Shown here piece by piece: positions 37,416 through 63,425 of a stretch of DNA of 64,000 nucleotides. Below the pieces are notes generated by a model. That model saw only the letters and a program-made list of their open reading frames with translations, was not told where the DNA came from and searched no databases. How positions within the stretch are numbered: the stretch's first letter is position 1; the number at the start of each line of letters is the position of its first letter. This DNA is from Eutreptiella sp. 'Long Island Sound 2002' (Eukaryota > Euglenozoa > Euglenophyceae > Eutreptiales > Eutreptiaceae): the NCBI GenBank assembly GCA_964036045.1, contig OZ038383.1:112193241-112257240 (forward strand). The letters are read 5' to 3'. A program made the translations under genes and the position numbers.

Positions 37416-37475
37416 AGGCAGCAGCGCCCAGCGCGGCGCCCCCCCACCGTCACCGACGCCACCGCCACCACCTTC

Positions 37476-39655: not shown

Positions 39656-39689
39656 GGGGGGAGGAAGAGGGACACAACCACCCATGGCA

Positions 39690-39890
39690 CACGCGCACCG
39701 CACACAGCACGCACACCGGTGAACAGGAGCCCAGGGGCCCAGGACACCGCACATGCGACACAACACACCGAGCGGGCACACCGGTGAACAGGAGCCAGCT
39801 GGCCCAGGACACCGCAGACGCACCACAGCAAACCGCGCGGGCACACCGGTGAACAGGAGCCCAACGCCCCAGGACACTGCACACACGTAG
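39690..39890 (+). repeat. Three further 65-bp minisatellite units
   Basis: CACACCGGTGAACAGGAGCC followed by a GGGGCCCAGGACACC-type segment occurs near 39712, 39777 and 39843. These are the same family as 34885-36890 but lie on the far side of the ORF block, so the ORF-bearing 36.9-39.65 kb segment is flanked by the same repeat in direct orientation. Confidence 0.8.
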
Positions 39891-40446: not shown

Positions 40447-40460
40447 CCTACCTACCTACC
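40447..40460 (+). repeat. (CCTA)n 3' tail of element B
   Basis: 3.5 units of CCTA immediately before the right target duplication. Short tandem 3' tails instead of poly(A) are known in several LINE groups. Confidence 0.75.
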
Positions 40461-40708
40461 TCTACAATGAGGTAAAGGGAGCTAAAGGGAGCTAAAGGGA
40501 GCTGAAGGGAGCTAAAGGGAGCTGAAGGGAGCTTAAGGGAGCTGAAGGGAGTTAAAGGGAGCTGAAGGAATGTGAAGGGAGGTAGAGGGAGCTAAAGGGA
40601 TCTAAAATGAGGTAACGGGAGCTAAAGGGAGCTGAAGGGAGCTAAAGGGAGCTAAGTGGAGCTGAAGGGAGGTAAAGGGAGCTGAAGGGAGCTGAAGGGG
40701 GCTGAAGG
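40461..40708. repeat. 10-bp satellite, array 4 (between elements B and C)
   Basis: 248 bp of the same satellite separating the two non-LTR elements. Its first 23 bp are the right target duplication of B and its last 18 bp (40691-40708) are one target duplication of C. Confidence 0.95.
40691..40708. repeat. Target-site duplication of element C (3' side of the element)
   Basis: GCTGAAGGGGGCTGAAGG, identical to 63426-63443. The GGGGGCT variant after GAA is uncommon in the satellite. Confidence 0.8.
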
Positions 40709-40735
40709 TTTGAGGTTTGAGGTTTGAGGTTTGAT
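40709..40735 (-). repeat. (CCTCAAA)n 3' tail of element C
   Basis: On the + strand TTTGAGG three times, then TTTGAT; on the - strand this is the 3' end of the element as CCTCAAA repeats. A 7-bp tandem tail next to the target duplication is LINE-like. Confidence 0.8.
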
Positions 40736-42608
40736 TTTGCGGGTACTAGACGCCTTTCGGCCCCGGGGGGCCACCTGGTCGGGCCAGGTGATATCCTCCC
40801 CACCGGGTCCTAGTGGGGGGCCCTCCAAGACGCACCTCCTGCCTGGTGGCGGAGTCCCCCGGGTTCACAGAGCTCGGAGCCCCGTCCTTCCCCGGCGTCC
40901 CCGTTTCGCCACTCCCCGGTCAGTGCATCAATTCGCAGCCGTGGCCGCGGGCGCTTACCCACTGCGTCGCCCCCCTAATGCGTGGTCGCCCGGGGCACCG
41001 GCGCCGCCGGGCCCGTGCTACTGGCTTGTCGCCAGTGGGACCCCCTTGGGCTGGCGCGGTGGCTGCCTAGCCTAGGGGTTGGGGCGTGGCGCTGTGCGTC
41101 ACTACTGCCTTGGCGGGTGCAGTGTCCCGTCTGTGTGTGCGCGGCGCTCGCGGCCGGTTCGGGGGGGTTCGGGCCGGTACCTGGTGTTGTGTTTCCCCTT
41201 CTTCCCCCTTCCCGCCCCGCGTATCCCGCGTTGCGTGTGGCGGGCCGTCCCGTCCGGGTGTCCCTTACCCTCGCTCGCTGGTACGCCATTCCAGGTGGTC
41301 TGTGCGTTCCGCGCGCTCGGTCCGGTTGCCCTTCTGGTGGTCCCCGCGTGTCCTTTTCGTGTGTGTGCGCTCGCGCTCTCGCGGTGTCCGCTCCCCGCTG
41401 GGTGGTGTGGCGCGCGCATCTCGCGTGGTCCCGGCACTGGGCGCTGGTAGGGCCGTTCCATGTGGTCCGTGCCCCTCCGCGTGTCCTGCCCCGGTCCCGT
41501 GCTCCGTCTGGCGTGCTTGGGGGGGGGCGGTCCGGTCCCGGTTCCCCCCTACTTGGCTTGGGGTTGCGGGGGCGGCGGCTGGGCGTCCCCGGGGGGGTGC
41601 CCTCGTCCGCGGGAGTCTCTTACGCCGCTGAGGGGTGTCGTCGGCTATGTATCCTGCCTTGAGGGTGGGGCTGTGCGCCGTCCACGCGCAGTCCACGCGC
41701 ACGGGGTCGGGACTGGGGAGGGGGCTGGGTGGGGTGCGTTGGATCGCCGACTGACGTGCACTGGGGTAAGAGGCGGGCAGTAGCACCACCGGGTCGCCGA
41801 CTGACTGTAGGGCGGGGGGTCGCTCTGTCTCTTTCCGTCCCTCTGCCTTCCCTGGGCAGGCAACAAAGCGGGCGTCACTGGCGTTGCGCCGTCCATGGGG
41901 GGCGTGGCCCCCCATACCACTCCGGTTCGTGTTCACCCAGCCTCTCCGGGTACGATCTGTGCGGCGTCCCTGTGCGCAGGCGTGGGCCCGTTTGTTCTTC
42001 GCGGCCCCCTTGTGGGCCGGCGGCCGGAGCGGGGGGGGCGGGTCACACTCCGGCCCCCCTCTCGGGTGGGGGGGCCCATTCCCCTTGCCTCGGGGGGGGT
42101 GTCGCGCTGCGGCCTCCCCGCTCTCGTTCCGGGCGGCGGCCTGTGGTACCCCTTTCTGGCCCTCCCCTCCGGCGCGCGCGTGCGGTCGGGGCTGACGTGC
42201 CGCCCCGGGGCGGGGGGGGGTGAGGGGCGGCCCGTGGACCGCTCCCCTGGGGGCCCCGGCTGACCTGCAAACCCCCCCTCCTTCCCCTCGGAGTGGGCTG
42301 TGGTCACGGGAGGGTCATGTGGGGCGCGGCCTCCTTCGTGCTCCGTTGTGCGCGTTGCTCCGGCACGCCGGTTTGGGTCCGTGGGGGCAGGTCCAGCCGC
42401 CGCCGCCCTTACCGTGTCGCCGTTCCTCCTGTGGGTGGGGGCGCCCCCCCGGCCCTGGGGGGTGGAGGGCCGCGCCTGTGGCTCCCCAGCTGGGGTGGGT
42501 GCGGGGGGGGGGGGGGGGGCCACCCCGCCTGCTCCCGGGCCTGTGTGGGAGGGGGGGGGGGGGAGTGGGGGGGGGTCCTCCGGTTCCCTGGCGATGCCCC
42601 CTGTCGGC

Positions 42609-42650
<42 letters not shown>

Positions 42651-43717
42651 GGGGGGGGGGCGGCTTGGCGGTCCCAGCCCCGGGGGCCAGCCATCGGCCA
42701 GGGGGGTCGCGCCCTTCCCCCGCCCCCCTCTACCGAGTGCCGGATCCTCCCGCAGTCCCTCCCTGGGGCCCCTCATTTCCCGGCCGTTGCCGCGCGGCGC
42801 TGGCCGGCCGGGGGTGGCCGTGAGGGTCAGCGGTCAGTGGTTAGCGGGTTGCGGGGCCGCCTTCCCTGGGTAGGTAACAAAGCGGGCGTCCCTTGGCGTC
42901 GTGCTGTCCATGGGGGGCGTGGCCACCCATACCATTCCGGTTCGCGCCCACCCGGCTTCTCTGGGCACGATCTGCGCGGCGTCCCGGTGCGCAGGCGCGG
43001 GCCCACTTGCTCTTCGCGGCCCCCATTGGAGCCGGCGGCTGGGGCGTCGGGGCGGGTCACACTCCGGCTCCCCTCTCGGGCGGGGGGGTCCGTCCCTTCA
43101 GCCTCGGGGGGTGGGGGCCGGGGCCCCTGCGGCCGGCGGGCCGGCGGGGGGGCGGGGGGGGGGGGGGGGTGTCGCGCCGCGGCCTCCCTGCTCTCGTTCC
43201 AGGCGGCGGCCTGTGGTACTCCTTCCCGGCTCTCTCCGTGTCGCCGGTGCTCTCCCTTCCGGCGCGCGCTTGCGGTCGGGGCTGAAGTGCCGCCCCGTGG
43301 GGGCCTCATCTGACTTGACACCCTCCCTCCGTCACCTCGGAGCGGGCTGTGGTTACGGGAGGGTCATGTGGGGCGCGGCCTCCTTCCTGCTCCGTCGTGC
43401 ACGTTGGGGGGGGGCGGGGGCGGCATGGCGGCCCCGGTCCCGGGGGCCAGCCCCTACCGAGAGCTGGATGCCCGCGCAGGCCCTCGCCGGGGCCCTCTCC
43501 TCCCCGGCCGTTACCGCGCGGCGCCGGCCGGCCGGGGGTGGCTGATGGTTAGCGGCCAGTGGTTAGCAGGTTGCGGGGCAGCCGGTTCCTCCCCGCGCTT
43601 GGCGCCCCCGCACTCCCTCCCGCGGGTGGCGGCGCATCCCCGCACGTCGTGCCGTACCGTGGGGGGGGCGTGGGTCAGGGGGCCCATCCCCCCCTCCCGT
43701 GCCCGCCGTCTGGGCCT
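40736..43717 (-). other. 3' untranslated region of element C
   Basis: About 3 kb of very GC-rich sequence with no convincing gene. Two diverged direct repeats of about 1 kb lie head to tail: from AACAAAGCGGGCGTC at 41862 and again at 42877, with later landmarks GGGAGGGTCATGTGGGGCGC near 42307 and 43360. The first unit contains A33 followed by G18 at 42610-42660 on the + strand. Overlapping Pro/Arg/Gly open frames on both strands are explained by GC content. Confidence 0.6.
40772..40790 (-). promoter_or_regulatory. 3'-terminal stem-loop of element C
   Basis: CACCTGG and CCAGGTG form a perfect 7-bp stem around a 5-nt loop, 37 nt inside the tandem tail. Flanking G- and C-runs could lengthen it. 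In LINEs such as eel UnaL2 a 3' stem-loop followed by short repeats is the RT recognition element, so this is a reasonable candidate. Function is not shown. Confidence 0.5.
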
Positions 43718-45757
43718 TCACTTGCGCCGCCGCTTGTGTGGGGGCTGGGGCTGCGGCGGCGGCGGGTTGTGCCGGCGGTAGCGCCAGTGGGCGAGGGCGC
43801 TACGCAGAGCCCGGGGGAGCCAGTTGTTGGCGTCCGCATCCGTGATGCGGAGCACCGCCCCCCCCTCCAGGAAGGCCGGCCACGTCGGCTCCCTGTCGGG
43901 CCACGCCGCCCGGATCACTGACCTGAGGACCCTCTCGTGGTCCCCTGGTGCCGCCCACCCCCCCGGGGGTGCCTCCCGGTGTCCTCCGTCCCTCCGGAGG
44001 AGCACGGCATCGAAGGGCCGGTTCCGCGACCTCCTGGAGGTCCCCTGGTTGGCCCAGCACAACCACCCGTACACTTCCCCCACCAGAGGGAGGGTCTCCC
44101 CCCCCAGCGGGTCCGGGACTGCGCCCCAGTCCACGTTCCACGGCCGGCTCTCCTCCGCCCCCTGTGCCGGCCCCCCTCGCTGCTCCTGCACCTGCGGCGC
44201 CGATGCCACGCCCCGTCCCCCCTCCGCCGAGGCCACCCGCGCCGGCTCCGCCCTCGGCGCGGGGGGGGCTTGCTGGTGCTGGTGTCGTGGGGGTTGGGGG
44301 GGGATGAGCTCGCCGGCGTCAGGGTCGATGTTGTAGAGGTGGTGGTGGTGGTGGTGGTGGTGGTGGTAGGTGTGGTGTGCCGGCATCTGTTGGATGCCGG
44401 GGGGGATGCACCTCACTGGCTGCACTTCCGGCTGCGGGGGTGCCCCGCCCTCTGCCCCCCTCCCCCCGCCCCGCCCTCCCCCCTGGGCTCCCGTGCCCCG
44501 TCCCTCCTGTCCCTTGGGGCCCTTGCCCTTGCCCTTGCCCTTGCCCTTGGGCCCCTTTCCGGTCCCGTGCCCATGTCGCGGGTCCCGCCTCTCGTCCCCC
44601 ACACCCCGGCCCGCTCGCTCTCCCATCCCCCCTTGTCCAGCCCCCTGCGCCTGGGTACCCTGCCCGCGCCCCTGAACACCCTTCCCGTGCCCTGGCCCCT
44701 CCCCGACCCCCTGCCCGCGTCGCGGGTCCCGCCTCTCGTCCACCACGCCCCGGCCCGCTCGCTCTCCCACCACCCCTCGCTCCGTCCCCTGCACCTGGGC
44801 CTCCTGCCCGCGCTCCCGCGCGCCCTTCCCGTGCCCCGACCCCTCCCCTGCCCCCTGCCTGTCACTCCGTCCGCCGCTCCCCTCCCCCTCGCCGCTGCGC
44901 CCTTCCTGGACCACTCGCCGGGCGTCCCGCTGCCTTTGCAGTTGCGGCAGCGTGACGCCCGGCGGTGAGCGCTCGCGCTTCGGGGGGCGGTCATGCCGCT
45001 CCCGCCCCGGGGGGAAGGGCTTGGGGGGGTACGGCTTGGGGGGGCTGGTGTGGGTGTGGGCGGGGTTGGCGTGGGCGCGGTACTTCTCGCTCTCCCTGCC
45101 CACTGCCGCTGCTGCGGCGGCCGCCGGCGAGGCGTCCGCGGCCCGTGCGGGGTTCTTCCCCCGCTTGCGCGGCGTGCCAGGGGCCGCAGCCCCTCTCGCG
45201 CCCTCCGCACTCTCCTTCGCTGCCGCGGCGGCCGCCGACGAGGCGCCCGTGGCCGCGGTCGCAGACTCTCGCGCATCCTTCTCGGTCTTCGCTGCTGCCG
45301 CGGCGGCCGTCGGCGAGGCGCCCACGGCCCGTGCAGGGCCCGTCGCAACCCCTCTTGCGCCCTGCTTGCTCTCCTGCGCTGCCCCCCTTGCCGGCGGTGT
45401 GCCGGGGGCCGCGGCCGGGGCCGCGGCGTGGCTCGCCGCGGTCTCCGCCTCCTGCGCGTCAGGGCGGGGCGGGGCGGCGGGGCTGGCCGCTTGGGCGGCG
45501 GGGGCGGCCGTCTCGGCTGGCCCAGGTTCCCGGGCCGGCAGCGGCGGTCCGACCACCGCCGCCTCCGCCAGCCTCCGCTCCTCGCGCTCCGCGAGGGTCT
45601 CCCCCGTCCACTCTGGGGAGGAGACGGGGGAGCGGGAGCGGGACCGGCGGTGGTGGCGGTCGTCCCGCCCGAGGGACCCATCGGAGTCTGCCATTACTGT
45701 CACTCTGGTAGGCATGCGTGGTGGCAGGCGCGCCCCTCCCACTACCTCCTGGTGCAT
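43718..45757 (-). CDS. Element C ORF4: low-complexity basic protein with C-terminal folded domain
   Basis: 679 codons from an ATG at 45757 to a TGA at 43718. This ATG shares its A with the TGA of ORF3 (TGATG); inner in-frame ATGs follow shortly (MPTRV, MADSDG). The N-terminus has an RS-rich stretch (RHHRRSRSRSPV). Then come Ala/Pro-rich repeats to about residue 220 and Gly/Lys/Arg-rich imperfect repeats with ERRDPR and GPGHGKG, including KGKGKGKG. A poly-His run follows, then a C-terminal domain (about 560-660, with GGW at 599-601 and VLR) and a basic end, HKRRRK. It looks like an RNA-binding or nuclear protein with a tail domain similar in pattern to element B ORF2. A gene placed after the RT ORF is unusual for a LINE. 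Function is unknown. Confidence 0.6.
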   Translation of the reverse strand: MHQEVVGGARLPPRMPTRVTVMADSDGSLGRDDRHHRRSRSRSPVSSPEWTGETLAEREERRLAEAAVVGPPLPAREPGPAETAAPAAQAASPAAPPRPDAQEAETAASHAAAPAAAPGTPPARGAAQESKQGARGVATGPARAVGASPTAAAAAAKTEKDARESATAATGASSAAAAAAKESAEGARGAAAPGTPRKRGKNPARAADASPAAAAAAAVGRESEKYRAHANPAHTHTSPPKPYPPKPFPPGRERHDRPPKRERSPPGVTLPQLQRQRDARRVVQEGRSGEGEGSGGRSDRQGAGEGSGHGKGARERGQEAQVQGTERGVVGERAGRGVVDERRDPRRGQGVGEGPGHGKGVQGRGQGTQAQGAGQGGMGERAGRGVGDERRDPRHGHGTGKGPKGKGKGKGKGPKGQEGRGTGAQGGGRGGGRGAEGGAPPQPEVQPVRCIPPGIQQMPAHHTYHHHHHHHHHLYNIDPDAGELIPPQPPRHQHQQAPPAPRAEPARVASAEGGRGVASAPQVQEQRGGPAQGAEESRPWNVDWGAVPDPLGGETLPLVGEVYGWLCWANQGTSRRSRNRPFDAVLLRRDGGHREAPPGGWAAPGDHERVLRSVIRAAWPDREPTWPAFLEGGAVLRITDADANNWLPRALRSALAHWRYRRHNPPPPQPQPPHKRRRK

Positions 45758-45759
45758 CA
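45755..45759 (-). promoter_or_regulatory. TGATG stop-start overlap of ORF3 and ORF4
   Basis: On the - strand the ORF3 stop TGA (45759-45757) shares its A with the ORF4 ATG (45757-45755). Stop-start overlaps support termination-reinitiation in some LINEs (the silkworm SART1 junction is a known case). Here coupling is inferred from the overlap only. Confidence 0.5.
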
Positions 45760-46989
45760 GTGCCGTGTCGTGGGCAGTGCCGTGTGGTGCTCTGCGGGGG
45801 GGGGGGGGGGAGGGGGTGGGGGGCCGGCTGCGGCGTCAGCCCCGCATGGCCGGGGGTCCGCGGCCATCCACCGGCATTGGGAGGGGAGGCGGGGGAGCCA
45901 CGCGGCCCACGCGTCGCGCCACAGCTCCCAGTCTGGGACGGGGCTCAGGGCCCTGGGCCCCCGGGGGTCGTCGAGCGGTGCCGGGGGCAGCCGCACCAGA
46001 TGGACCCCCGTAACGGCGGTGACCTCCTGTGTGCGCAGGAAGGTGTGTACTCCGTCCCGCGCCGCGGGCGCCGGGAGGGGGGGGCGGGGTACAGGTGTGG
46101 CCCCATAGAGGTGGGTGGGGGTGATCCCCAGGATCCGCCCCGAGCCCCCGCGGGACGCGACGACGAGGAGGAGGAGGGGGGTGCCAGGGCACTCTTGCCA
46201 GAGGACCTGCCCCCTGTGGTGGGCACCCCTGGTCCTGGAGAGGGGGGGGGACAGGTCTGGGTTAGCCCAGCCGCGGGGCGCGTGCGTCGCCGGTGGGAGG
46301 GCGGGGCACCAAGTGGGCTCCCTGGGGAACGCCTCGTAGACGACGGCGTACGGGGGGGTAGGCCCGGTGCCGTCATACACCGGGTTGGTCGGCCGGGGGC
46401 GGGCGGACGCCTCGCCCGCGCCTTCCACGAACACCGTGACCTCGCCCACCTCCAGGTCCTCGTCCGGCGGGTGTAGAAGGTGGAGCGCCGCATCCAGCTC
46501 GGACACTCCCCCCGGGTACGTGGCCCGCGCCTGGTTCAGGTACGGGGCCGCGTCCCCGGGGTAGCGCGTCCTGAGGGCGTGCAGCAGGGCTGGGGCGCTA
46601 CTGCGGAGGGACATGGCAGACCCCGCTCCCGTCAGCCGGAGGGCGTCCCCCATGGACAGGGGCCGGCCCGACCGATTGGACTCGCGCCACTCCATCCAGT
46701 GCCCGTAGAGGGCCGCTTCCGGGCTGATGAGCCCCGGCCGGACGGCGTTCACGATCCGGTGCATTGCCGGGAGCAACGTAGGGGCTCCCGCTCCGTTCAG
46801 GGCGCGGACGGCCGGGAGGGCGGTCTCGTTGAGGAAGGCCCTCGCACTGCCCTCCAGGTCGCACCGTGCGGCAGCGTGCGCTCCTTTTGCCTCCGCCACC
46901 GCGTCCGCCACCAGGCCCCGGACGGCCGCCTCCTGCGCTCTGCGGCGGGCCCTGGCGTGCCCCGGCCCATCCCCCCGTCGGCGTGGCAT
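45757..46989 (-). CDS. Element C ORF3: unknown protein downstream of the RT ORF
   Basis: 410 codons from an ATG at 46989 to a TGA at 45757, starting 39 nt after the ORF2 stop. The first 35 residues are very basic (MPRRRGDGPGHARARRRAQ). Residues 35-190 look folded and mostly helical (AMHRIVNAVRPGLISPEAALYGHWMEWR, then SAPALLHALRTRYPG), followed by an acidic piece (DEDLEVGEV). A hydrophobic strand-rich part (TPLLLLVVASRGGSGRILGI) lies around residue 270-295. It ends Pro-rich. No known domain is recognised. Length and amino-acid content are not those of simple repeats, so it is probably a real gene. It may form a cotranslated pair with ORF4. Confidence 0.6.
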   Translation of the reverse strand: MPRRRGDGPGHARARRRAQEAAVRGLVADAVAEAKGAHAAARCDLEGSARAFLNETALPAVRALNGAGAPTLLPAMHRIVNAVRPGLISPEAALYGHWMEWRESNRSGRPLSMGDALRLTGAGSAMSLRSSAPALLHALRTRYPGDAAPYLNQARATYPGGVSELDAALHLLHPPDEDLEVGEVTVFVEGAGEASARPRPTNPVYDGTGPTPPYAVVYEAFPREPTWCPALPPATHAPRGWANPDLSPPLSRTRGAHHRGQVLWQECPGTPLLLLVVASRGGSGRILGITPTHLYGATPVPRPPLPAPAARDGVHTFLRTQEVTAVTGVHLVRLPPAPLDDPRGPRALSPVPDWELWRDAWAAWLPRLPSQCRWMAADPRPCGADAAAGPPPPPPPPPAEHHTALPTTRH

Positions 46990-47028
46990 GGTGCTGCGGG
47001 CTCTGCAAAGGGCGGCGGCGGGTGGGGG

Positions 47029-50000
47029 TTAGGGGGCGAACACGTGCGACAGGTGCGCAATGGATGTGGGGTCCCGCAGGTGCACGTGGATCCATAGAAG
47101 GGCAGCGCCCGCGGGGCCCGCCTGTTCGTGTGAGGGGGTGTGTGCCCCCTCGATGCGCCGGCGCAAGGCCTCCTCCTCTGTGCGCCTGCGCGGACCTGCG
47201 GGAGGTTCGGGCCAGGGGCACGCGGCTACCTGGGTGCACCGCTCGCACCTGTTGGCGCCTGTCGCTGCTGCGGAGGACACCGTGTCACACTCTCCGCAGA
47301 GTCGGCAGGTGTGCGGGAGGTGGGAGGGCGGCGACCAAGGGTCGAGATGGCGGAGCCAGAGGTCGTCCCACCTCTGTCGGAGGGGGTCCCGGATCTCCAG
47401 CAAGCGGGCGCGGACGCGGCGCCGGTAGTCCTTGCCAAGCGTCTTCCGCTGGACCTCCTGCCACGTGTCGCCGGGGAGGATCCCGTGGTCGTGGAAGGCG
47501 GCGATGAGGTCGTCCCACGACGGGCGGGGGTGCCCCTGGTGGGGGCTCGCCATGTACACGTGGCGCCCGGTGAGGTGGGGCGTCAGCGCGTCCCATTGGC
47601 ACCCGTTCGCGGTGTCCCTGTGGAGGAGGGCCAGCAGGGTGCCGTCCGCGACCGCTTCCCACCCCACTCGCAGCCCTTCGCAGCCGTCCAGCTCCTGGCG
47701 CAGCGCGGCTGCGATACCGGTGGGGAACATGAGGAGCAAGGGCCCCTGTGTGTCGCCCAGCCGGGACAGGGCGTCGTCGTATACCGGCCCCCCCGCTTTG
47801 AAGTGCGCCACGGTGAGTTGGGTGGCCCCGTCCTCTGGGGGTTGCCACCGGACGGTGGCCGCAGCGTGTCCCCACGTGCGTATCTCCGTGGCCCGGAGCA
47901 CGTTGGCAGTGTGAAGGACGATGCGGGGCGGGACGGGCGTCCTGACGAGTGAGGATACGTCCCCAGCCCATCCCGTTTGCGGCCCTGGGGCCGCCTGCAG
48001 CCATCCCCCTGTCGCCGCGTCCCACGGGTGGTCAGGTCCCGCCCCTCGGACCATGGTGGGTCTCGGCCGGGTGTCCGGCCCCCACCCCCGGAGCGGGATG
48101 GCGGCGTATCGTTGCGCAGGGGTCTCCGGGGCGCGCGTGGCGGCGCACCACCGGCCCCACTCCCGCGCCCACTCCTCTCCCACGATGCGCGCCTCCCATG
48201 CGGTCATGGAGCCGCGCCCGATGATCCACGGTGGGAAAAGGGCGTCTTGCAGGTGCCTCGAGAACCCCCCCGGCAGGTCCTGATACGGGTGGGGGCCCTC
48301 TTGGAGTGGGCACTCCAGAGTGCCATTCACAACACGGAGGGAGGCTACGAAGTCCTTGTCAGGGCGCGGGGGAGGGGGAGGGTGGTCGCCCTCCGCCGCA
48401 GTGAGCCACCGGTGCGCCCGGGCCGCCGCGCTTAGGGGGTCGCGGAGGAGTTGCTCCAGCCGGTGGTTGCGAAGCTCCCACGCGAAGTCCCCTAGCCGGA
48501 GCATGTGGTGGAGGAAGTCGTCCACCGAGGTCCCTCCCGGCGGGTCGTATCGGGTTATGGCGCGGAGCTGCGCCTCCGCGTCCTCGGGCACCAGTCCGGA
48601 GCAGAACACCTCTGTCCACGTGGCGCCTGCGGAGCGCCACGAGGCCACCCACAGGGCCTTGTCCCCAGGTGGGAGGTGGCGGGCCGCCTCGTGCACCGCC
48701 TGGCGGTAGTGGGGCCAGAGGAGCCGCGAGTGGGTGCAGCCCACGTGCATGTGCACCGGGGTCTCTTCCGGGCCGCCGCAGAAAAGGCACGGCTGCGGGA
48801 GGATGGCGACGCCGGAGAGCCGCTCCTTCCGGACGCGGAGCCTGCGCTGCACCGGCGTGTGGCCGTCCCGGGCCCGCAGCGCCCGGCGGTTGGTGGCCGC
48901 CGCGGTGAGGTCCCGGGCGTGGACGTAGGCCGTGGCGTGGGCCGCGCCCAGAGGTGTGTGTCCCCGGTGCGTCAGCGCATGGTCCGTCTGCGCCCGTTGT
49001 GCGACCTCGCCGAGCACCCGCATCGTGGGGGGCCGTAGATCGAGATGGCCGTCACGGCCGGCGACGATGAGTTGGGCGTGGCCAGGGTCCGGGGGCGTGT
49101 TCTGCAAGACGGTGTCCTGGGACGCCGCCCAGTCCGCCTTGTGTAGTAGGGCGTCACTGTGGTGCGAGGTGGCTCGGACGTACCAGAACGGGTGCCCGGC
49201 GTGTTGCCCCCGCGCGCACAGGCCGTCCCGGAGCCACCTCAGGGGCATCTGGTTGACCACCTTCGCTGCGCCCGCGGGGACCCCCGTGGTTCGCTCGCGA
49301 TCTGCGTGCCGTAGGAGGTGGAGGATGACCTCGGCGTCCACCGTGTGGACCCATGGTCTGTGTGCACCGTAATGTAGGGGGAGGGAGGCGGCCACCCCCT
49401 CTCCGTCAGGCACCGTGCCCGAGATGGCCACCGCCCACGTGCGGGTGAGGTCGGCGGCGAGAGCGACGCTGGTGGCGTGTTTGCAGGGTCCGCCCCCGGA
49501 TGCGTCAGAGGAGGTGTGTCCCCAGGCCTCCGGGATCCAGTAGTATCCGGTGGGGCTGAGCCACCCCGCGTTGAGGTCGGTGGAGTGCCACCGGACGTCG
49601 GGGTGGCTGTGGGTCAGTTGGTCCATGCTCAGCGCCCTGGTGTCGCCTGGGCTGATCGCCGGGTGGTCGTGCAGCCGGATCTCCGCTCCGGCGATGGTGC
49701 TTGCCCAGGACCGTAGCGCCGTCACATGTTCCTTGAGCCACGCCGGGCCTCCGCGCTGGTGTACCACCAAGTGTCCTGTGTCCCCCGGACGGTCCTCCAG
49801 CGCGTGCACCGCCATGTGTGGGTCGTGCGGCACCCCCGTAGCCACCAGTAGGGCGGTGCCACGGGGGAGTCCACGGGGTTCGGGCTGGCCTGCCCCCACT
49901 TGCACTATCACCCACTCGGCCCGGAGCTGCGCTTGTCCCGCCGCTTGGGTGCACTGGTCGTCTGTGGTCACCAGCCACAACGGCGTCGGCGCGTGGGGCC

Positions 50001-53724: not shown

Positions 53725-53727
53725 TCA
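53686..53727 (-). promoter_or_regulatory. ORF1 TGA stop and downstream hairpin (candidate readthrough signal)
   Basis: On the - strand the ORF1 stop TGA (53727-53725) is followed, in the same frame, by CTC CAG and then by a GC-rich imperfect hairpin at 53718-53686. Its pairs are GAGGA with TCCTC, CAC with GTG and GGGC with GCCC around a 3-nt loop. A structure starting 6 nt after a UGA is well placed to promote readthrough. No alternative ATG lies ahead of the endonuclease motif. Confidence 0.55.
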
Positions 53728-56700
53728 GCTATCCCGCGTCGGCATCGCCGCCGGGTTCGCTGGTGCCGCCAGGGCATCTGGGTGCGCCGCATCCGCTGAG
53801 CCCGTTCCCAGCGGGGCCCACAAGGGGGCCCGGGGGACCGGGGGAGTCAGGGGGGCCAGGGGGGCCAGCCCCGCGGGGATGGACATGGGCCCTGGTGGGG
53901 CCGCACCGCCGGCCCCCGGGGCCGCTCCGGGTGCCTCCTCACCTCCATCTGCGTGGTCGGCTGCCTGGGGCGGGGGGCGCCGGGTGTACGGGGCGTGCCA
54001 CGGGGACCTCCGTGCTCTCCCCTGCAGGATGTTGGCGGCCGCCTCCTTGCCGTCCGCCGGGGCCGCAGCGTGCACCGCGTGCCACGCCAGGTGTTCCAGC
54101 ATCGCCCCGCTGGTGTAGTACTTGTCCGCACACAGGGGGCATTTCGTCGGCTCCGTGGCCCCTCGCGCCGGGGGGAGCTGCACCGACTTCCGAATGGCGC
54201 CCTCCGCCGCTGGTTCGAAGGGCAGGTTGGCCAGCGGCACCGTGTGTGGTGCCAGCGTGCGGCCCGGGGCCGCCGCATCGAGGGCTCGCGTCGCGGGCGC
54301 GGGCCCGAGGCCTCGGATGGCATCGCGCTGCACGTCTGCTGGCAGCCACGTTTGCCAGTGCGTGGAGCCGATTTGGCGGTCGGGTTTGCTCCTCCACCGC
54401 AGGTCGTGGAAGGCCTGTAGCCAGTGGTACACCGTGGTCGGGACCGCCAGCTGGAGCTCCAGGTCGGCGGGGTGCGCCGCTGCCGGCCACACTCCCGGCC
54501 TCGCCGCCCGGGCGTTGTCCTTCAGCCTGACCTGGAGCAGGAGGGCGTGGTGTTCGCCCTCCCGCAGCGCCTTGATGATCATGCGTGTGCAGTCTGCCAC
54601 GCGGATCACGGCTTCGGGCCCCGGCAGGCGTTCAGGGTCGCAGACGACGACGTGCGCGTCCGCCGGGCTGAACATGCAGACCACCCACTGTGGGTTCTGC
54701 TGCCCCCGTTGGGCCACCGCCAGGGTAGCCGCTGGGCGGGCGTGCGTGATGGGCCCCGCGTGGAGGTCCGGGACGTCCGTGGCCCTGATGGCGTCTCCCT
54801 GCCACGCGGCCCGTAGATGCTCCTCCTGGTCGGGGCTCCACACCAGTGCGGGGGGGTTGACCCACCCCGGTTCCTGCCTCTTGTTGGGGGCGCTGACCGT
54901 GTGCAGCAGGACCGCCAGTGGCCAGGGGTCCGCCGACATGTAGTAGGCCTGGGTGGGCCCCTGTCGCCAGTCGACGTGGGACAGGGGCGGGAATGCCCCT
55001 TGCCTAGCGGTGCTGTGCCAGACCGCCCATCGGCCTCCGGCCAGGACGTGCGACCGGTACCCTCCGGCGTGGCCGTGTACGATGGCTTGGTATCCTGCCG
55101 TCTGCAGTACCAGCGCCTCCCCCTGCTTAGGCCCGGGCGGGGGTGCGCCATCGCCCGCACCCCAGACGCGGGTGCGCCCGCGGAGTGTGGCATGCCACGG
55201 GTCTGATGCATCGCGCTGGGGCCCTTGTATGCACCCCGCAATTTGCGCCGGGCCGTGGTGGTGGACGAAGCTCTCCCCGCCGTCTGCTAGCAAAGCCGCC
55301 GCGACGACGTATAGTTGCTCCGCCGTGAGGGGCGCCGTCGGCTCGTGTGTCGCGGCCGGCCGTCGGGGCCGCGTGTCGCGGCAGGGGACGTGGGGCAGCA
55401 GCTGCGCCGGCCACGCCGCCACTGGACCCATGGTGACGGCCGCGACCGCGGACGCCAGCGCCGTGCGGTCCGTGGGTCTGTACTGCCGGAGTCCCGTGGT
55501 ATCTCGGGTGAGGTGCCTGCAGGCTGCCATCCAGGCCACCGCTCCGCAGTTCGTGCAGTCTGGTTCGGTACCGCTCGCATCGTCGCCTCCCCACTGCTGT
55601 ACCGTGGTGGCGGTGTCGAGCGGGGGGCCCCGCTGTAGCGCCTCCGGGCCCTGCCCCGGCGGGAGGGCGGGCGGGATTGGCTGTGGGTAGTTTTGCGCGC
55701 CCCGGCGCTCCGGGTGCGTGTGGTACGGGTCCTGCCGGCGGTGTTCCGGGGCTGCCCGTGGCTGGAAGAGGAGCTGGTGCAGGTACCAGTGGCCCTCCGC
55801 GGCGGACGGATTGCGGAGCGTTAGCCACTGTTCCACCACGCCTCCTGGGTGCGCGCCCTCGACGCGGCGCTGCAACCCCAGGCGGCCTAGGCGGTTGGAC
55901 GTGCCCGCGGGCGGGATGTGTGCCTGCGGGTAGAGCACCCGCAGCGGCTCCAGCGCCAGGTCCAGCACTTCATCGTTGAGCTGCTTCGTGAGGGCCGACG
56001 CCCTGTGTAGGGCGTGGAGGACCCCGGGTGTGGGGGCCGTGAGCTGTTCGAGCACCGGTCCCGGCGGGTACCGCGTACCCGGGTTCGTCAGCCACTCCCT
56101 GGTGTGGCTCAGTACGGCCTTCCACACGTCCCTTGTAAAGGCGTGCCGGGGGGCCAATGAGGGGACCATCCGTAGGAGGCGGTGGCACGCCGGCGGCGAC
56201 CGCATGGGCTGTGGGGCGGCCGCCGTGATCCACCTGCACGCCGTGCCGGGCACGATCGCCCCCCATTCCACGGTCCCCATGCCCTCGGCATGAATCAGCG
56301 CCTGGCCTTGGACCATGGGGAAATAGGGGCTCGAGCGCCCCTTCCCTTCCCTCCACCGTACCCAGGCAGCCCCCGCCTGCAGGCTGCGGAGCAGGGCCAC
56401 GCCGGGGAGGGGCGGCTGCGGGAAGGCCCCCTTGACGGCCTGGGTGGCGTGGGCCAAGGTGCCCATTGGTAAGTACCACAACGGGAGGGTCCAGGGGCCC
56501 GGCAGTGGTTGCGCCACCCCTGCGTCCCATCGCCACTCGGAGTCTGGCGGGGCGGCCGGGACCGTGCCCGTCTGCAGGAAGTGGCGTGCATACTTGTCGG
56601 GGTGCCGTTGGAGGGTTGCCGCGAGGCTGAGCCCCTCCGCTGCTGGTGCCACCGGGAGGCCGCCCCGGGGCCTGCGCCAGGGGTATTCCTGGTCGGCCGG

Positions 56701-57420
56701 CCAGGTGTGGAGGTCCCGGGCGATGTCCTCCGCGGTCCCTGTGGGGGCGTCCTCTGGTGCCAGGTGCCACATGACGGCGAGCACCGCCCATGTGGAAAAG
56801 GGCCACGCCCGCGGGGGGGTGTACACCTGGATGGTCCACTGTGGGCACGCCCGCCGCACGCGGGACACGTGGAGCACCCCTCGGGCCATGTCCGCCGCCA
56901 GGACCAGCACCATTCCCGAGGGATCCACAATGATCCCCTCTGCGGGTCCACCGTGGCGGCCCCGGGTGTGCAGGGCCACCGCCGCCTGTCCCGCGTGGGT
57001 GACGCGGTCGACGGCCTCCTGGATGTTCACGCTGCCGCGCGCGGTCTCATCCAGGATCCAGCCCTGCGTCACCCCGTAGCGTAGGGCGGCGTGTGCGGCC
57101 GCGGGTTTCACCTCGGGCAACGCTCCGTCGTCGGCATCGGGCTGGGGGTGCTGTCTGGGGCACCAGCCTTCGCCGGTGCAATGGCCCCGTTTCCACGCGG
57201 GGCAAATCGCGGATACGCTGCCCGCCGGCGGCGCAGGTTCCGCGGGCGCGCCCCCCGCGGGGGGCTCCGGTAATGCCTCCAGGTCGGAGTCTGTGCCCGC
57301 GTCCTCTTGTGGGGGGTCTCCTTCGCCGTCTCTGAGTCCCAGCGCCCTGATGACCTCGTGTGCTTCGTCCAGCGTCGGAGATCGGGGGCGTGTCTTGCGT
57401 GGTGCCGCGGGTTCCGCCAT
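53725..57420 (-). CDS. Element C ORF1: zinc-finger protein with possible cysteine-protease-like region
   Basis: 1,231 codons from an ATG at 57420 (MAEPAAPRKT) to a TGA at 53725. The open frame continues upstream to 57972, but that part is only 212-bp monomer sequence, so 57420 is preferred. A CCCH finger is at C73-x7-C81-x5-C87-x3-H91. A classical C2H2 finger is at C1094-x2-C1097-x12-H1110-x3-H1114. Between them lies a large, mostly globular, Trp-rich part. At 621-637 DCTNCGAVAWMAACRHL resembles the Cys box of OTU/USP-type cysteine proteases (N-C-x3-A). Near 780-800 VHGHAGGYRSH and a Trp recall a USP His box, but the expected GHY is GGY, so activity is doubtful. The C-terminus is Pro/Ala/Gly-rich. 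It probably binds element RNA or the target; this is inferred from the fingers and from its place before ORF2. Confidence 0.75.
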   Translation of the reverse strand: MAEPAAPRKTRPRSPTLDEAHEVIRALGLRDGEGDPPQEDAGTDSDLEALPEPPAGGAPAEPAPPAGSVSAICPAWKRGHCTGEGWCPRQHPQPDADDGALPEVKPAAAHAALRYGVTQGWILDETARGSVNIQEAVDRVTHAGQAAVALHTRGRHGGPAEGIIVDPSGMVLVLAADMARGVLHVSRVRRACPQWTIQVYTPPRAWPFSTWAVLAVMWHLAPEDAPTGTAEDIARDLHTWPADQEYPWRRPRGGLPVAPAAEGLSLAATLQRHPDKYARHFLQTGTVPAAPPDSEWRWDAGVAQPLPGPWTLPLWYLPMGTLAHATQAVKGAFPQPPLPGVALLRSLQAGAAWVRWREGKGRSSPYFPMVQGQALIHAEGMGTVEWGAIVPGTACRWITAAAPQPMRSPPACHRLLRMVPSLAPRHAFTRDVWKAVLSHTREWLTNPGTRYPPGPVLEQLTAPTPGVLHALHRASALTKQLNDEVLDLALEPLRVLYPQAHIPPAGTSNRLGRLGLQRRVEGAHPGGVVEQWLTLRNPSAAEGHWYLHQLLFQPRAAPEHRRQDPYHTHPERRGAQNYPQPIPPALPPGQGPEALQRGPPLDTATTVQQWGGDDASGTEPDCTNCGAVAWMAACRHLTRDTTGLRQYRPTDRTALASAVAAVTMGPVAAWPAQLLPHVPCRDTRPRRPAATHEPTAPLTAEQLYVVAAALLADGGESFVHHHGPAQIAGCIQGPQRDASDPWHATLRGRTRVWGAGDGAPPPGPKQGEALVLQTAGYQAIVHGHAGGYRSHVLAGGRWAVWHSTARQGAFPPLSHVDWRQGPTQAYYMSADPWPLAVLLHTVSAPNKRQEPGWVNPPALVWSPDQEEHLRAAWQGDAIRATDVPDLHAGPITHARPAATLAVAQRGQQNPQWVVCMFSPADAHVVVCDPERLPGPEAVIRVADCTRMIIKALREGEHHALLLQVRLKDNARAARPGVWPAAAHPADLELQLAVPTTVYHWLQAFHDLRWRSKPDRQIGSTHWQTWLPADVQRDAIRGLGPAPATRALDAAAPGRTLAPHTVPLANLPFEPAAEGAIRKSVQLPPARGATEPTKCPLCADKYYTSGAMLEHLAWHAVHAAAPADGKEAAANILQGRARRSPWHAPYTRRPPPQAADHADGGEEAPGAAPGAGGAAPPGPMSIPAGLAPLAPLTPPVPRAPLWAPLGTGSADAAHPDALAAPANPAAMPTRDS

Positions 57421-57481
57421 TGCTATGTCGCTGTGTCTAAGAGCAGGGGGCGGGGTGCGGATGTCCCGTGGCTGGTGCGTT

Positions 57482-60400
57482 GGTGCGTTGGTGCGTTGCT
57501 CGCTGTGGGGGTGGCGGGAGGGCGCCCCCGGGGGGGGTGCCTTCCACCGTTGTGAGGGGTGCCTGGTGTCAGGCGCCGTCCCTTCCCCGGCCGCTCGTCC
57601 TCCGGAGCGTGCAGCCAGGGTTCCGCGACCCGCGTGTCCCGGGTGCGGTCGATGCGGGCATGTGGACCCAGCACCGGCCCCACAGCGTGCGCCCTTGCGG
57701 GCCGGCGTTGCTCGCTGTGGGGGTGGCGGAAGGGCGTCCCCGGGGGGGTGCCTTCCACCGTTGTGAGGGGCGCCTGGTGTCAGGCGCTGTCCCTCCCCCG
57801 GCCGCGCTCGTCCTCCGTAGCGTGCAGCCAGGGTTCCGCGACCCGTGTGTCCCGGGCGCGGTCGATGCGGGCGTGTGGACCCAGCACCGGTCCCACAGTG
57901 TGCGCCCTCGCGGGCCGACGCTGCTCGCTGTGGGGCTGGCGGAATGGCGTCCCCGGGGGGGGTGCTTTCCACCGTTGTGAGGGGCGCCTGGTGTCAGGCG
58001 CTGTCCCTTCCCTGGCCGCTCGTCCTCCGGAGCGCGCAGCCAGGGTTCCGCGACCCGCGTGTCCCGGGCGCGGTCGATGTGGGCGTGTGGACCCAGTACC
58101 GGTCCCACGGCGTGCGCCCTTGCGGGCCGGCGTTGTTCGCCGTGGGGGTGGCGGAAGGGCGTCCCCGGGGGGGGCTGCCTTCCACCGTTGTGAGGGGCGT
58201 CTGGTGTCAGGCACTGTCCCTTCCTCGGCCGCTCGTCCTCCGGAGCGTGCAGCCAGGTTCCGCGACCCGCGTGTCCCGGGCGCGGTCGATGCGGGCAGTG
58301 GACCCGGCACCGGCCCCACAGCGTGCGCCCTTGCGGGCCGACGCTGCTCGCTGTGGGGGTGGCGGAAGGGCGTCCCCGGGGGGGGTGCCTTCCACCGTTG
58401 TGAGGGGCGCCTGGCGTCAGGCGCTGTCCCTCCCCCGGCCGCTCGTCCTCCGGAGCGTGCGGCCAGGGTTCCGCGACCCGTGTGTCCCGGGTGCGGTCGG
58501 TGCGGGCGTGTGGACCCAGCACCGGCCCCACAGCGTGCGCCCTTGTGGGCTGGCGTTGCTCGCTGTGGGGCTGGCGGAAGGGCGTCCCCGGGGGGGTGCC
58601 TTCCACCGTTGTGAGGGGCGCCTGGTGTCAGGCGCTGCCCCTCCCCCGGCCGCTCGTCCTCCGGAGCGTGCAGCCAGGGCTCCGTGACCCGCGTGTCCCG
58701 GGTGCGGTCGATGCGGGCGGGTGGACCCAGCACCGGCCTCACAGCGTGCGCCCTTGCGGGCCGGCGTTGCTCGCTGTGGGGGTGGCGGGAGGGCGTCCCC
58801 GGGGGGGGTGCCTTCCACCGTTGTGAGGGGCGCCTGGTGTCAGGCGCTGTCCCTCCCCCGGCCGCTCGTCCTCCGGAGCGTGCAGCCAGGGTTCCGCGAC
58901 CCGCGTGTCCCGGGCGCGGTCGGTGCGGGCGTGTGGACCCAGCACCGGCCCCACAGCGTGCGCCCTTGCGGGCCGGCGTTGCTCGCTGTGGGGGTGGTGG
59001 AGGGGCGCCCCCGGGGGGGGTGCCTGCCACCGTTGTGAGGGGCGCCTGGCGTCAGGCACTGTCCCTCCCCCGGCCGCTCGTCCTTTGGAGCGCGCAGCCG
59101 GGGTTCTGCGACCCGTGTGTCCCGGGTGCGGTCGATGCGGGCGTGTGGACCCAGCACCGGCCCCGCAGCGTGCGCCCTTGCGGGCCGCCGTTGCTCGCTG
59201 TGGGGGTGGCGGAAGGGCGTCCCCGGGGGGGGTGCCTTCCACCGTTGTGAGGGGCGCCTGGTGTCAGGCGCTGCCCCTTCCCCGGCCGCTCGTCCTCCGG
59301 AGCGTGCAGCCAGGGTTCCGCGACCCGTGTGTCCCGGGTGCGGTCGGTGCGGGCGTGTGGACCCAGCACCGGCCCCACAGCGTGCGCCCTTGTGGGCTGG
59401 CGTTGCTCGCTGTGGGGCTGGCGGAAGGGCGTCCCCGGGGGGGTGCCTTCCACCGTTGTGAGGGGCGCCTGGTGTCAGGCGCTGTCCCTCTCCCGGCCGC
59501 TCGTCCCCTGGAGCGTGCAGCCAGGGCTCCGCGACCCGTGTGTCCCGGGCGCGGTTGATGTAGGCATGTGGACCCAGCACCAGCCCCACAGCGTGCGCCC
59601 TTGCGGGCCGGCGTTGCTCGCTGTGGGGGTGGCGGAAGGGCGTCCCCGGGGGGGTTGCCTTCCGCCGTTGTGAGGGGCGCCTGGTGTCAGGCGCTGTCCC
59701 TCCCCCGGCCGCTCGTCCTCCGGAGCGTGCAGCTAGGGTTCCGCGACCCGCGCGTCCCGGGTGCGGTCGATGCGGGCGTGTGGACCCAGCACCGGCCCCA
59801 CAGCGTGCGCCCTTGCGGGCTGGCGTTGCTCGCTATGGGGGTGGCGGAAGGGCGTCCCCGGGGGGGGTGCCTTCCACCGTTGTGAGGGGCGCCTGGTGTC
59901 AGGCGCTGTCACTCCCCCGGCCGCCCGTCCTCCGGAGCGTGCAGCCAGGGTTCCGCGACCCGTGTGTCCCGGGTGCGGTCGATGTGGGCGTGTGGACCCA
60001 GCTCCGGCCCCACAGCGTGCGCCCTTGCGGGCCGGCGTTGCTCGCTGTGGGGGCGGCAGAAGGGCGTCCCCGGGGGGGGTGCCTTCTACCGTCGTGAGGG
60101 GCGCCTGGTGTCAGGCGCTGTCCCTCCCCCGGCTGCTCGTCCTCTGGAGCGCGCAGCCAGGGTTCCGCGACCCGTGTGTCCCGGGTGCGGTCGATGCGGG
60201 CGTGTGGACCCAGCACCAGCCCCACAGCGTGCGCCCTTGCGGGCCGGCGTTGCTCGCTGTGAGGGTGGCGGAAGGGCGTCCCCGGGGGGGGTGCCTTCCA
60301 CCGTCGTGAGGGGCGCCTGGTGTCAGGCGCTGCCCCTCCCTCGGCCGCTCGTCCTCCGGAGCGTGCAGCCAGGGTTCCGCGACCCGTGTGTCCCGGGTGC

Positions 60401-61410
60401 GGTCGATGCGGGCGTGTGGACCCAGCACCGGCCCCACAGCGTGCGCCCTTGCGGGCCGGCGTTGCTCGCTGTGGGGGTGGCGGGAGGGCGTCCCCGGGGG
60501 GGGCTGCCTTCCACCGTTGTGAGGGGCGCCTGGTGTCAGGCGCTGTCCCTCCCCCGGCTGCTCGTCCTCCGGAGCGCGCAGCCAGGGTTCCGCGACCCGT
60601 GCGTCCCGGGTGCGGTCGATGCGGGCGTGTGGACCCAGCACCGGCCCCACAGCGTGCGCCCTTGCGGGCCGGCGTTGCTCGCTGTGGGGGTGGCGGAAGG
60701 GCGTCCCCGGGGGGGGTGCCTTCCACCGTTGTGAGGGGCGCCTGGTGTCAGGCGCTGCCCCTCCCCCGGCCGCTCGTCCTCCGGAGCGTGCAGCCAGGGT
60801 TCCGCGACCCGTGTGTCCCGGGTGCGGTCGATGCGGGCGTGTGGACCCAGCATCGGCCCCACAGCGTGCGCCCTTGCGGGCCGGCGTTGCTCGCTGTGGG
60901 GGTGGCGGAAGGGCGTCCCCGGGGGGGGCTGCCTTCCACCGTTGTGAGGGGCGCTTGGTGCCAGGCGCTGTCCCTCCCCCGGCCGCTCGTCTTCCGGAGC
61001 GTGCAGCCAGGGTTCCGCGACCCGTGTGTCCCGGGTGCGGTCGATGCGGGCGTGTGGACCCAGCACCGGCCCCACAGCGTGCGCCCTTGCGGGCCGGCGT
61101 TGCTCGCTGTGGGGGTGGCGGAAGGGCGTCCCCGGGGGGGGCTGCCTTCCACCGTTGTGAGGGGCGCCTGGTGCCAGGCGCTGTCCCTCCCCCGGCTGCC
61201 CGTCCTCCGGAGCGTGCAGCCAGGGTTCCGCGACCCGCGTGTCCCGGGTGCGGTCGGTGTGGGCGTGGGGGCCCGGCACCGGCCCCACAGCGTGCGCCCT
61301 TGCGGGCCGGCGTTGCTCGCTGTGGGGGTGGCGGAAAGGCGTCCCCGGGGGGGGTGCCTTCCACCATGGTGAGGGGCGCTTGGGGTCAGGCGCTGTCCCT
61401 CTCCCGTCTG
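57482..61410 (-). repeat. 212-bp monomer array upstream of ORF1 (~18.5 copies)
   Basis: Tandem units with a constant step of about 212 bp: TGCTCGCTGTGGGG recurs near 57497, 57709, 57921, 58347, 58558 and so on to 61314. Each unit contains CCTTCCACCGTTGTGAGGGG, CGCTCGTCCTCCGGAGCGTG and GGTTCCGCGACCCG. Since 212 is not a multiple of 3, open frames crossing many units pass through all three frames; they are not genes. Placement directly upstream of ORF1 is like the 5'-UTR promoter monomers of mouse L1, whose units are about the same length. A promoter role is inferred. Confidence 0.95.
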
Positions 61411-62491
61411 CCCGCCCACTGCCGGGTGGGTTGCCGGGGTTCGTTGGGTGTGTGCGGTGTGTGTGGTGCCTGTGCCGTGCGTGTCGTGGTGTGTGGTGCT
61501 GCTCTTTCCTTGGTCCCCCGGTGCTCCCCTCTCCGGTGTCTCGGTGCGGTGTTGTGCTCGCCGTGTGCCCGCCGTGTCCCCTCCTCTGTGTGCGCCCCTT
61601 GCTCGTTCGCTGGCTTCCCCTTGTTCCTTTCGCGGCTTCGTTGCTCTTTACCCTTTCCTCTACCCCTCTCCCTAGCATGCACTTTTTCCCTGCCTCCGCT
61701 TTGTTGTGTGTCTCTGTCTTTTTTCTTGTCGGCCCGGGCTTCCTCTTTTGAACCTGCGTAGGGAGAGAAGGGTGCGTAAGCAAACGTGCGGCGGCGGCGG
61801 TTTTGTCGCGGCACGGCACCTCGAGCTGGCCGGTACGTCATGCGACATTCATGTGCGACCGGCTTGCGTGTAGGTTTATCGCCCCATTTGCTCCCGGCTT
61901 GTTTCCACCCCCCTTTGGTCGCTACCTGTTCTCGTCGCCCGTTCCGCGTGCGCGGCGTGACATTCAACATACCTGCCTCTTTCCCCACTACCTTGACGTG
62001 TTCTAGTCCTCCCGCCTTGTCGGGCGTTCGCTTATGTGTGACGACGGCACGACGCAATACTTGCCTAAGCGTCTAAGACAACCCTACTTTAACGCCCGGA
62101 CGCCCGGACGACACGAGCATACGCTTCTCTTCGGGACCTGTGAGGATAGGACACGGGTGCGTGCACGTGTGTTTGTTGGGACCCGGCACTCGCCGGCGCT
62201 ATGCCATTTGTGTGTTTGCTCTTCCTATCCCCCTCCGTGGCTACTTGTGTGTTCTAACCCACGCAACTCCGCGGTTGGCGACGTGGCACGACATGGTAAC
62301 ATACTTGCGTTCTTGGTGGCGGTGTGTGGCTTGTCTACTATTCGTTTGCATGCGGCGGCATACCTTTTGTTCCCTTTCGCTCCCCTTCGCCTCCTACATA
62401 AGCGGGCGTGTGGGTGGGCGGTGGGCACGTCTCGGTTACGTAGCGTAGCGTGGCAACATACTTGGACCCCACTAGTCACGTGTGTATGCTT

Positions 62492-62534
<43 letters not shown>

Positions 62535-63425
62535 TTTTTTGTTGTGTTGTGCTTTACCTCGGTGGTCTTTTTGTTCCTCCCTGTTTGTCCCTTCATACCT
62601 TGCCGCTCGTCCGCGGCGGTGTTGGCCTTGCGGCGTTCCGGGCATGCGCGTGCGGGCATACCTTTCTTTCCCTATGCGAGTGGGGGTGAGCATAGGCGTT
62701 CTTTCGGTGCTACCTCTTGTTGGTTTTCCTTGCCGGTGCGGTTTTCGTTGCGCTTTTCGTGGCGGCGCACTTTGGCGTTGCTTATCACTTTACTTGTTTT
62801 GCGCTTGTTACGGCGTTATGCACACAACATATGGCACATATGCACATAACATACTTGCTTTCCGGCGGCCGGTGGCGTTGTTGTTGCTTGTGTGTATTTT
62901 TCATGCACGACATTCAACATACTTGGGTACATGTGCGGCTTCTTGCTCTTTTTGTTGTGATCCCCTTCGCGCGTATTTCCTACATGAGTGGGCTTGCATT
63001 GCTTGGTCGTGTACTTGGTATATCTCCACCGTGGTGCGGTTCGTTACCTATGTTTTCTCCTTGTCTACCTCTTTCCGCGTTGTGTTTGTTTCGTTGGTTT
63101 TTCGCGGTGCGTGGCACATAACATACTTGCTTGTCGGCGGCCGGTGGCGTTGTTGTTGTCTATGTGTGGGTTGTTTTGGGGCGCGCACAAGTCCCTAGCG
63201 CCTAGGGCACGCACTTTGCTAGGTGGTTTGGGGCAAGCAACGCTCAGTTTCTTCGCCGTCGCGACTCTATTGTTCGTCTTTTTCGGTGAGTGTCCTATAT
63301 TTTGCGACCTCGCCAAACAGCGGCGTAAAATTGTTGGGGGGGTTTCTGAGGTCGGAAAAGACGATTTTTCGCTTTATTTCTGCTGGCGGTGCGTCTTTTT
63401 CTCGTAATTTTATTTTTCTTCTGCT
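61411..63425 (-). other. 5' leader of element C
   Basis: About 2 kb between the monomers and the 5' target duplication, with lower GC than the ORFs. It contains T40 on the + strand at 62494-62533 (A-run on the - strand). ACATACTTG-type motifs recur near 62302, 62456, 62854, 62911 and 63120, and a 40-bp block, CATAACATACTTGCTT then CGGCGGCCGGTGGCGTTG, is present at 62847 and 63115. No convincing ORF is seen. It may hold the upstream promoter. Confidence 0.55.
62494..62533 (-). repeat. 40-bp homopolymer tract (poly-A on - strand)
   Basis: Forty T in a row on the + strand. It could mark an old poly(A)-tailed insertion in the leader or be a simple expansion; no flanking duplication is seen. Confidence 0.8.

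Follow-up and report, generated by a model that had tools for sequence, protein, structure and literature searches.

Can a single retrotransposon without long terminal repeats (LTRs) occupy 22.7 kb? This question is raised by positions 40709..63425 of a 64,000-nucleotide stretch of contig OZ038383.1 from Eutreptiella sp. 'Long Island Sound 2002', hereafter the window. An initial annotation, made from the sequence alone, had proposed that this block is one long interspersed nuclear element (LINE) bounded by an exact 18-bp target duplication. The analysis reported here leads us to conclude, with high confidence, that the block represents a single insertion of a giant non-LTR retrotransposon (LINE) of the apurinic/apyrimidinic endonuclease (APE) type. 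Common ends, different insertion sites, target-site duplications (TSDs), collinear interiors, coding domains, and near-identical copies were all observed, and from these sequence features we infer that the element is transcribed and retrotransposed.

One insertion into satellite DNA

The whole element spans 40709..63425 on the - strand (22,717 bp). The 18-mer GCTGAAGGGGGCTGAAGG was found exactly beside its 3' end (40691..40708) and beside its 5' end (63426..63443), and a search of the whole window on both strands located it at no third site. The copy beside the 3' end can be read as 15-18 bp, with AGG common to the tail as the source of ambiguity. Both edges are embedded in satellite DNA of 10-bp units, and the 18-mer has 617 matches within three mismatches in the window; a match in satellite phase alone therefore carries little weight. 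Among the 1081 satellite 18-mers in the window that start with G[CG]T[AG], the string was present only at the two edges; the chance that two random satellite 18-mers agree is approximately 0.07, a figure driven by common strings. Genome-wide, the string occurred 15 times, and 14 of these sites fell within C6:109.9-113.5 Mb, around the window.

When the flanks were joined with a single copy of the 18-mer, an unbroken satellite resulted and the 10-bp register was kept. Judged by eye, the repeat over the joint measured 160 bp, which is the length of the next higher-order repeat, and the variants GAGGTAACGG and GAGCTAAGTG were common to both. The restored empty site and the rarity of the 18-mer therefore indicate that one insertion opened the satellite array, and a chance satellite match as the origin of the edge 18-mer was rejected on the same grounds. 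The exact duplication described in the initial annotation is thus confirmed, and the objection raised there, that the string might be frequent in the satellite, did not hold for either the window or the genome.

The satellite also occupies positions 1-6049 and other stretches of the window, with a 10-bp unit of GAGCTRAAGG and higher-order repeats of approximately 120-160 bp. The 14 genomic sites on C6 cover approximately 3.5 Mb, perhaps one large array region.

Copies with the same ends at unrelated sites

The host genome (2.28 Gb) was searched with both ends of the element, and the best 40 matches at each end were scored. The last 542 bp returned 1282 candidates at a first look, the best 40 of which were 100% identical over at least 538 of the 542 bp and were distributed over 17 contigs. 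The first 526 nt returned 2043 such candidates, and the best 40 were 99-100% identical over at least 520 of the 526 bp. Copies were defined by pairing, by hand, the 5' and 3' end coordinates of both best-40 lists. The results revealed six full-length copies, namely the window copy of 22,717 bp and others of 22,763, 23,179, 22,765, 22,977, and 22,446 bp. In the five other copies, all 20 internal 400-bp samples (four in each) were gap-free and collinear at 99.25-100% identity. The differences in length 5' of the ORF1 sample were approximately -5, +1, +210, +422, and -211 bp, corresponding to 0, 0, 1, 2, and -1 tandem monomers, and the other part of the differences lay on the 3' side (approximately +40 to +53, or -59 bp); both parts were worked out from the sample offsets. 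The flanks of the paired copies were mutually unrelated.

TSDs of variable length (10-83 bp) were identified in nine of 12 paired copies. For the full-length copies they measured 18 bp in the window, 83 bp at C1:197.6M, 12 bp at C9, and 16 bp at C1:50.0M; the TSD of 10 bp at C1:131.8M is weak, yet it lies exactly at the tail. Short copies had TSDs of 17 bp (C25), 16 bp (C3), and 14 bp (C1:8.5M), and at C11 an exact match of 19 bp was embedded in an imperfect match of 32 bp. Visual inspection provided the TSDs at C1:50.0M, C25, C3, and C1:8.5M. Some TSDs include up to five bases in common with the tail, and in several copies approximately 10-30 additional bases separate the element from its TSD.

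The 3' end is constant: a tandem tail of (TCAAACC)n (40709..40734, - strand) closed the element at all 14 readable (plus-strand) genomic loci. At the other end, 15 of the 17 5' junctions printed for other copies carried TCGCGCGATCGC ahead of AGCAGAAG, with which the window copy starts, and 13 of them carried GTGTCGCGCGATCGC; the other two, L051 and L052, were without TCGCGCGATCGC, as was the window copy. Relative to the most frequent 5' end, the window copy therefore lacks approximately 15 nt. A 33-mer containing the extended 5' end occurred exactly 53 times genome-wide, on 18 contigs.

The shared ends, the collinear copies, and the TSDs at unrelated sites indicate that the 22.7 kb constitute one mobile unit. 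The comparison of copies proposed in the initial annotation yielded five further insertions at unrelated sites (22,446-23,179 bp), four of them with TSDs, one weak. The single unit postulated there is accordingly supported by ends common to six copies, collinear interiors, and TSDs in five of the six.

Layout of the element and its first two open reading frames

A LINE layout on the - strand had been predicted, comprising a leader, monomers, open reading frame (ORF) 1, an ORF2 with endonuclease, reverse transcriptase (RT), and RNase H, a 3' untranslated region (UTR), and a tandem tail. All of these parts were recovered except RNase H, which was not confirmed. The 5' leader (61407..63425, - strand) has a GC content of 0.55, compared with 0.71-0.76 in the other parts measured, and contains six GTATGTT motifs and an A40 tract at 62494-62533. 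On the element strand, AAGTATGTT is repeated five times and AGGTATGTT occurs once in the leader, and we take these repeats to resemble a 5' splice site. The tandem monomers (57493..61406, - strand) comprise approximately 18 (18.5) units of 212 bp with a similarity of 90-98%, a range that leaves out one row in which two units were not split. The 3' UTR (40735..43717, - strand) is approximately 3 kb long and holds a diverged tandem duplication of approximately 1 kb at 41845-43583, a T33 tract, a hairpin predicted near 40770-40790, and a stretch of 45 bp (41565-41609) that resembles the monomers at 82-84%. Self-comparison for LTRs found no repeat linking both element ends; the only signal was a weak, short resemblance of the 3' UTR to the monomers. 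An Rfam scan at the gathering threshold gave no match.

ORF1 (53725..57420, - strand) encodes 1231 aa, with a CCCH-like motif at 57148-57204 and a C2H2-like motif at 54079-54141, both recognized by eye. It had 67 protein-database matches representing 996 member sequences, and some ORF1 proteins continue from monomer sequence. A Pfam search of 20 ORF1 members gave one weak C2H2 match and one other weak match, each in one of the 20. A protease-like reading of ORF1, a guess made by eye, was unsupported.

The ORF2 open frame (47029..53724, - strand) comprises 2231 codons, is in frame with ORF1 past a UGA, and has a long C-terminal extension. Its APE endonuclease (52921-53691, - strand; Exo_endo_phos, E=1.8e-8, residues 12-268) lies upstream of the RT (51085-51816, - strand; RVT_1, E=3.4e-22), and a zinc-knuckle-like motif is located at 48736-48789 (- strand). 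The RT had 10 solved-structure matches, R2 and LINE-1 RTs among them. No AUG precedes the endonuclease, and an ACG lies 15 nt beyond the first position of the codon following the UGA. The UGA-C at the end of ORF1, the ACG a few codons on, and the lack of an AUG ahead of the endonuclease were common to all six full-length copies; at the position of the ACG, the relatives P0004 and P0049 carry Met. ORF2 would be translated through UGA read-through or non-AUG initiation. Downstream of the RT, the element and P0008 have acidic and His residues in common, in an order that by eye resembles RNase H; neither Pfam nor solved-structure searches gave any match for this region, including a fragment spanning all candidate residues. 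The predicted structure of the C-terminal half of ORF2 (mean pLDDT 32) was too poor and was not used for the RNase H question. The C-terminal part of ORF2 had a ratio of nonsynonymous to synonymous substitution rates (dN/dS) of 0.29-0.30 versus two diverged copies.

The protein search with ORF2 yielded nine matches. Five had 89-99% identity (438, 5, 10, 1, and 1 members), two formed a second family at 37% (P0008, with 1283 members, and P0009, with 1), and two more were at 25%. P0008 represents a second family of similar LINEs, its 1283 member sequences being those in the protein database. No relatives of the element and no satellite were found in viral and GTDB contigs, among which records of the host's own genome were possibly excluded.

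ORF3 and ORF4

Two further frames follow ORF2. ORF3 (45757..46989, - strand) encodes 410 aa with no known domain, and ORF4 (43718..45757, - strand) encodes 679 low-complexity aa with a conserved C-terminal part. A chimeric ORF3+ORF4 query returned 749 protein matches, of which the best 120 comprised 90 ORF3, 22 ORF4, four ORF3+ORF4, and four ORF2+ORF3 proteins. Bridging proteins give the order ORF1-ORF2-ORF3-ORF4 in other copies of the element, and ORF4 is also present in other copies. A Pfam search of 23 ORF3 members returned two weak families, each matched in a single member.

Both frames might be chance openings in GC-rich DNA rather than genes of the element; DNA of 75% GC contains few stops, neither frame has a known domain, and the ORF4 part had a dN/dS of 0.65-0.76. 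However, ORF3 had a dN/dS of 0.32-0.52 versus two diverged copies, and shifting the frame in this DNA gave 0.80-1.92. When the relative P0131 served as the query for ORF3, 13,790 candidates were obtained at a first look, and of the 102 copies scored, 91 had no internal stop across the 410 aa. Moreover, the AUG of ORF4 overlaps the stop of ORF3 as UGAUG in all six full-length copies, although these are nearly identical to each other. We thus regard chance frames as improbable. ORF3 is part of the family and seems to be under constraint, and the constraint on ORF4 is weaker. The initial annotation had claimed two genes after the RT ORF; both ORFs do occur in other copies, and the claim stands more firmly for ORF3 than for ORF4.

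Alternative origins and opposing observations

The 22.7 kb could also be a composite private to this site, in which a shorter LINE (approximately 14-20 kb) contains unrelated DNA through a nested insertion or a captured leader. The low GC content and A40 tract of the leader, together with the T33 tract and 1-kb duplication of the 3' UTR, speak for such an origin, but the five copies elsewhere with the same ends, near-equal lengths, and collinear insides refute it; they are still compatible with a fusion of older date whose parts are now mobile together. A nested insertion at the A40 tract was rejected, the best upstream match being 7 bp compared with a random mean of 8.8 bp. The corresponding test at the T33 tract returned a poly-G match alone and was uninformative. 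No internal TSD pair was seen among exact repeats of at least 14 bp, a limit that short pairs would escape. A private composite is consequently very unlikely. Hardly credible is an origin of the copies in DNA-level segmental duplication instead of retrotransposition, which was rejected: such duplication does happen here, because the two Ty3/gypsy copies of the window were duplicated in tandem along with satellite (96% over 11 kb), but the LINE copies have unrelated flanks, nine of the 12 paired copies have their own TSDs, and a short tandem tail always marks the 3' end.

Several observations weigh against one giant LINE that moves in a single piece. Only 13 of the 40 best 3' ends were paired and 27 were not, and the paired copies are biased to young ones because the best 40 per end alone were scored. 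Probing at -22.7 kb from six 3' ends returned no element match longer than 250 bp. Three of these are short forms; the other three, at C21, C8:73.4M, and C3:187.5M, had no element at that distance, so the copies there are shorter or different. For three of the six probed copies, the 5' ends of which were not found by probing, 5' truncation is possible. No TSD was found at C1:94.0M (full length), C20, or C4 (both short), that is, in three of the 12 copies tested, and the flanks at C4 look inverted relative to each other. The weaker constraint on ORF4 and the missing profile match for RNase H count on the same side, as does the fact that the full-length transcript and target-primed reverse transcription itself are inferred.

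Short forms and a proposed mechanism

Seven pairs of ends were only 6-8 kb apart (5,950, 5,968, 5,972, 5,969, 7,817, and 7,828 bp, plus 8,251 bp); the last was measured from GTGTCG and surfaced with the extended 5' ends. Two of the seven were read through, namely L065 (C25, 6 kb) and L066 (C4, 7.8 kb). Both kept the leader, monomers, and 3' end and had lost all ORFs, retaining element positions 1-4903 and 21650-22717 in one case and 1-5981 and 20866-22717 in the other. The short forms look like non-autonomous partners that may be mobilized in trans by the proteins of the full-length element.

If the block is one giant LINE, its full-length RNA would begin at or close to GGTGTCGCGCGATCGCAGCAGAAG and extend across the leader, monomers, and four ORFs to (UCAAACC)n; the model transcript, from GGTGTCGCGCGATCGC to this tail, would be approximately 22.7 kb long. 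ORF2 would be made by read-through of UGA-C or by a fresh start of translation at the ACG that follows within a few codons, and ORF4 by stop-start coupling at UGAUG. The endonuclease would nick the target, the freed 3' end would prime reverse transcription at the tail, and the RT would copy the entire RNA of approximately 22.7 kb. Second-strand synthesis would then produce a TSD of variable length and, at times, extra bases at the 5' junction. Internally deleted, ORF-less copies that have both ends would probably be mobilized by the same proteins.

A broader account can be offered only tentatively, and we consider it rather doubtful as a whole. The element would belong to a young, recently active LINE lineage that, through the gain of ORF3 and ORF4, grew to at least twice the size typical of its class; the products of these two ORFs would let the ribonucleoprotein (RNP) carry and copy a 23-kb RNA. 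ORF2 would be started without AUG, by read-through or at the ACG, and the ORF-less derivatives of 6-8 kb would parasitize the lineage by retaining both ends.

Other inserts in the window

Two Ty3/gypsy elements are located at 6050-17013 and 19650-30566, with chromodomain (chromo), RT, RNase H, and integrase matches and LTRs of 532 bp that are 98.5% alike. The two copies and the adjoining satellite form a tandem duplication that is approximately 96% identical; frames that run as one in the second copy are split in the first. A third insert in the satellite (34206-40460, + strand) ends in (TACC)n, is flanked by a 23-bp TSD at 34183-34205 and 40461-40483, and contains 65-bp tandem repeats in two places. 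Two of its frames were scanned and gave no Pfam match above the cut-off, and it is perhaps a non-autonomous element. Elsewhere in the host genome, TTAGGG-type telomere repeats were present at six of eight contig ends sampled.

Comparison with known elements

The element appears to be several times the usual LINE size, with four ORFs and near-identical genomic copies. In a review of giant transposons, the traditional limit for retrotransposons is placed at approximately 10 kb, in connection with transcript length, RT processivity, and RNP capacity, and the very large retroelements named in the excerpt considered are LTR or Penelope-like elements, namely Terminons (Penelope-like) and Burro and Ogre (Ty3/gypsy) (PMC6431247). 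Our literature search, from which Repbase and most subscription journals were excluded, found no LINE near 20 kb, which is no proof of absence. The suggestion in the initial annotation that the element is among the largest of its kind thus agrees with what was found, within the limits of that search. With a LINE of approximately 22.7 kb inserted repeatedly in one piece, the limit of processivity in target-primed reverse transcription can be tested directly. Its RT is a candidate for writing long DNA, and the full-length element with its ORF-less partners provides a natural system.

Mouse L1-type LINEs are approximately 7 kb long. Similar to the present element, they have tandem monomers upstream of ORF1 (PMC9022269) and an APE endonuclease and RT in ORF2. 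By contrast, the element described here is 22.7 kb long, has a 2-kb leader upstream of the monomers and two ORFs past ORF2, and ends in 7-bp repeats instead of poly(A).

The Drosophila telomeric elements TART and HeT-A are likewise large LINEs with an unusually long 3' UTR, and HeT-A/TART repeats are 6-14 kb on average according to a review (PMC5537684). The present element differs from them in that its insertions are dispersed, most of those tested having TSDs, instead of forming head-to-tail telomere arrays, and also in its larger size and its possession of ORF3 and ORF4. Terminons, Burro, and Ogre resemble it in being very large, some with extra ORFs (PMC6431247), whereas the element here has no LTRs and combines an APE endonuclease with its RT. 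Finally, the Zepp and ZeppL L1 elements of algal centromeres are also LINEs in repeat-rich regions (PMC8226300); in contrast, nearly all of the best 40 matches to each end of the present element lie on other contigs or outside the satellite region of the window.

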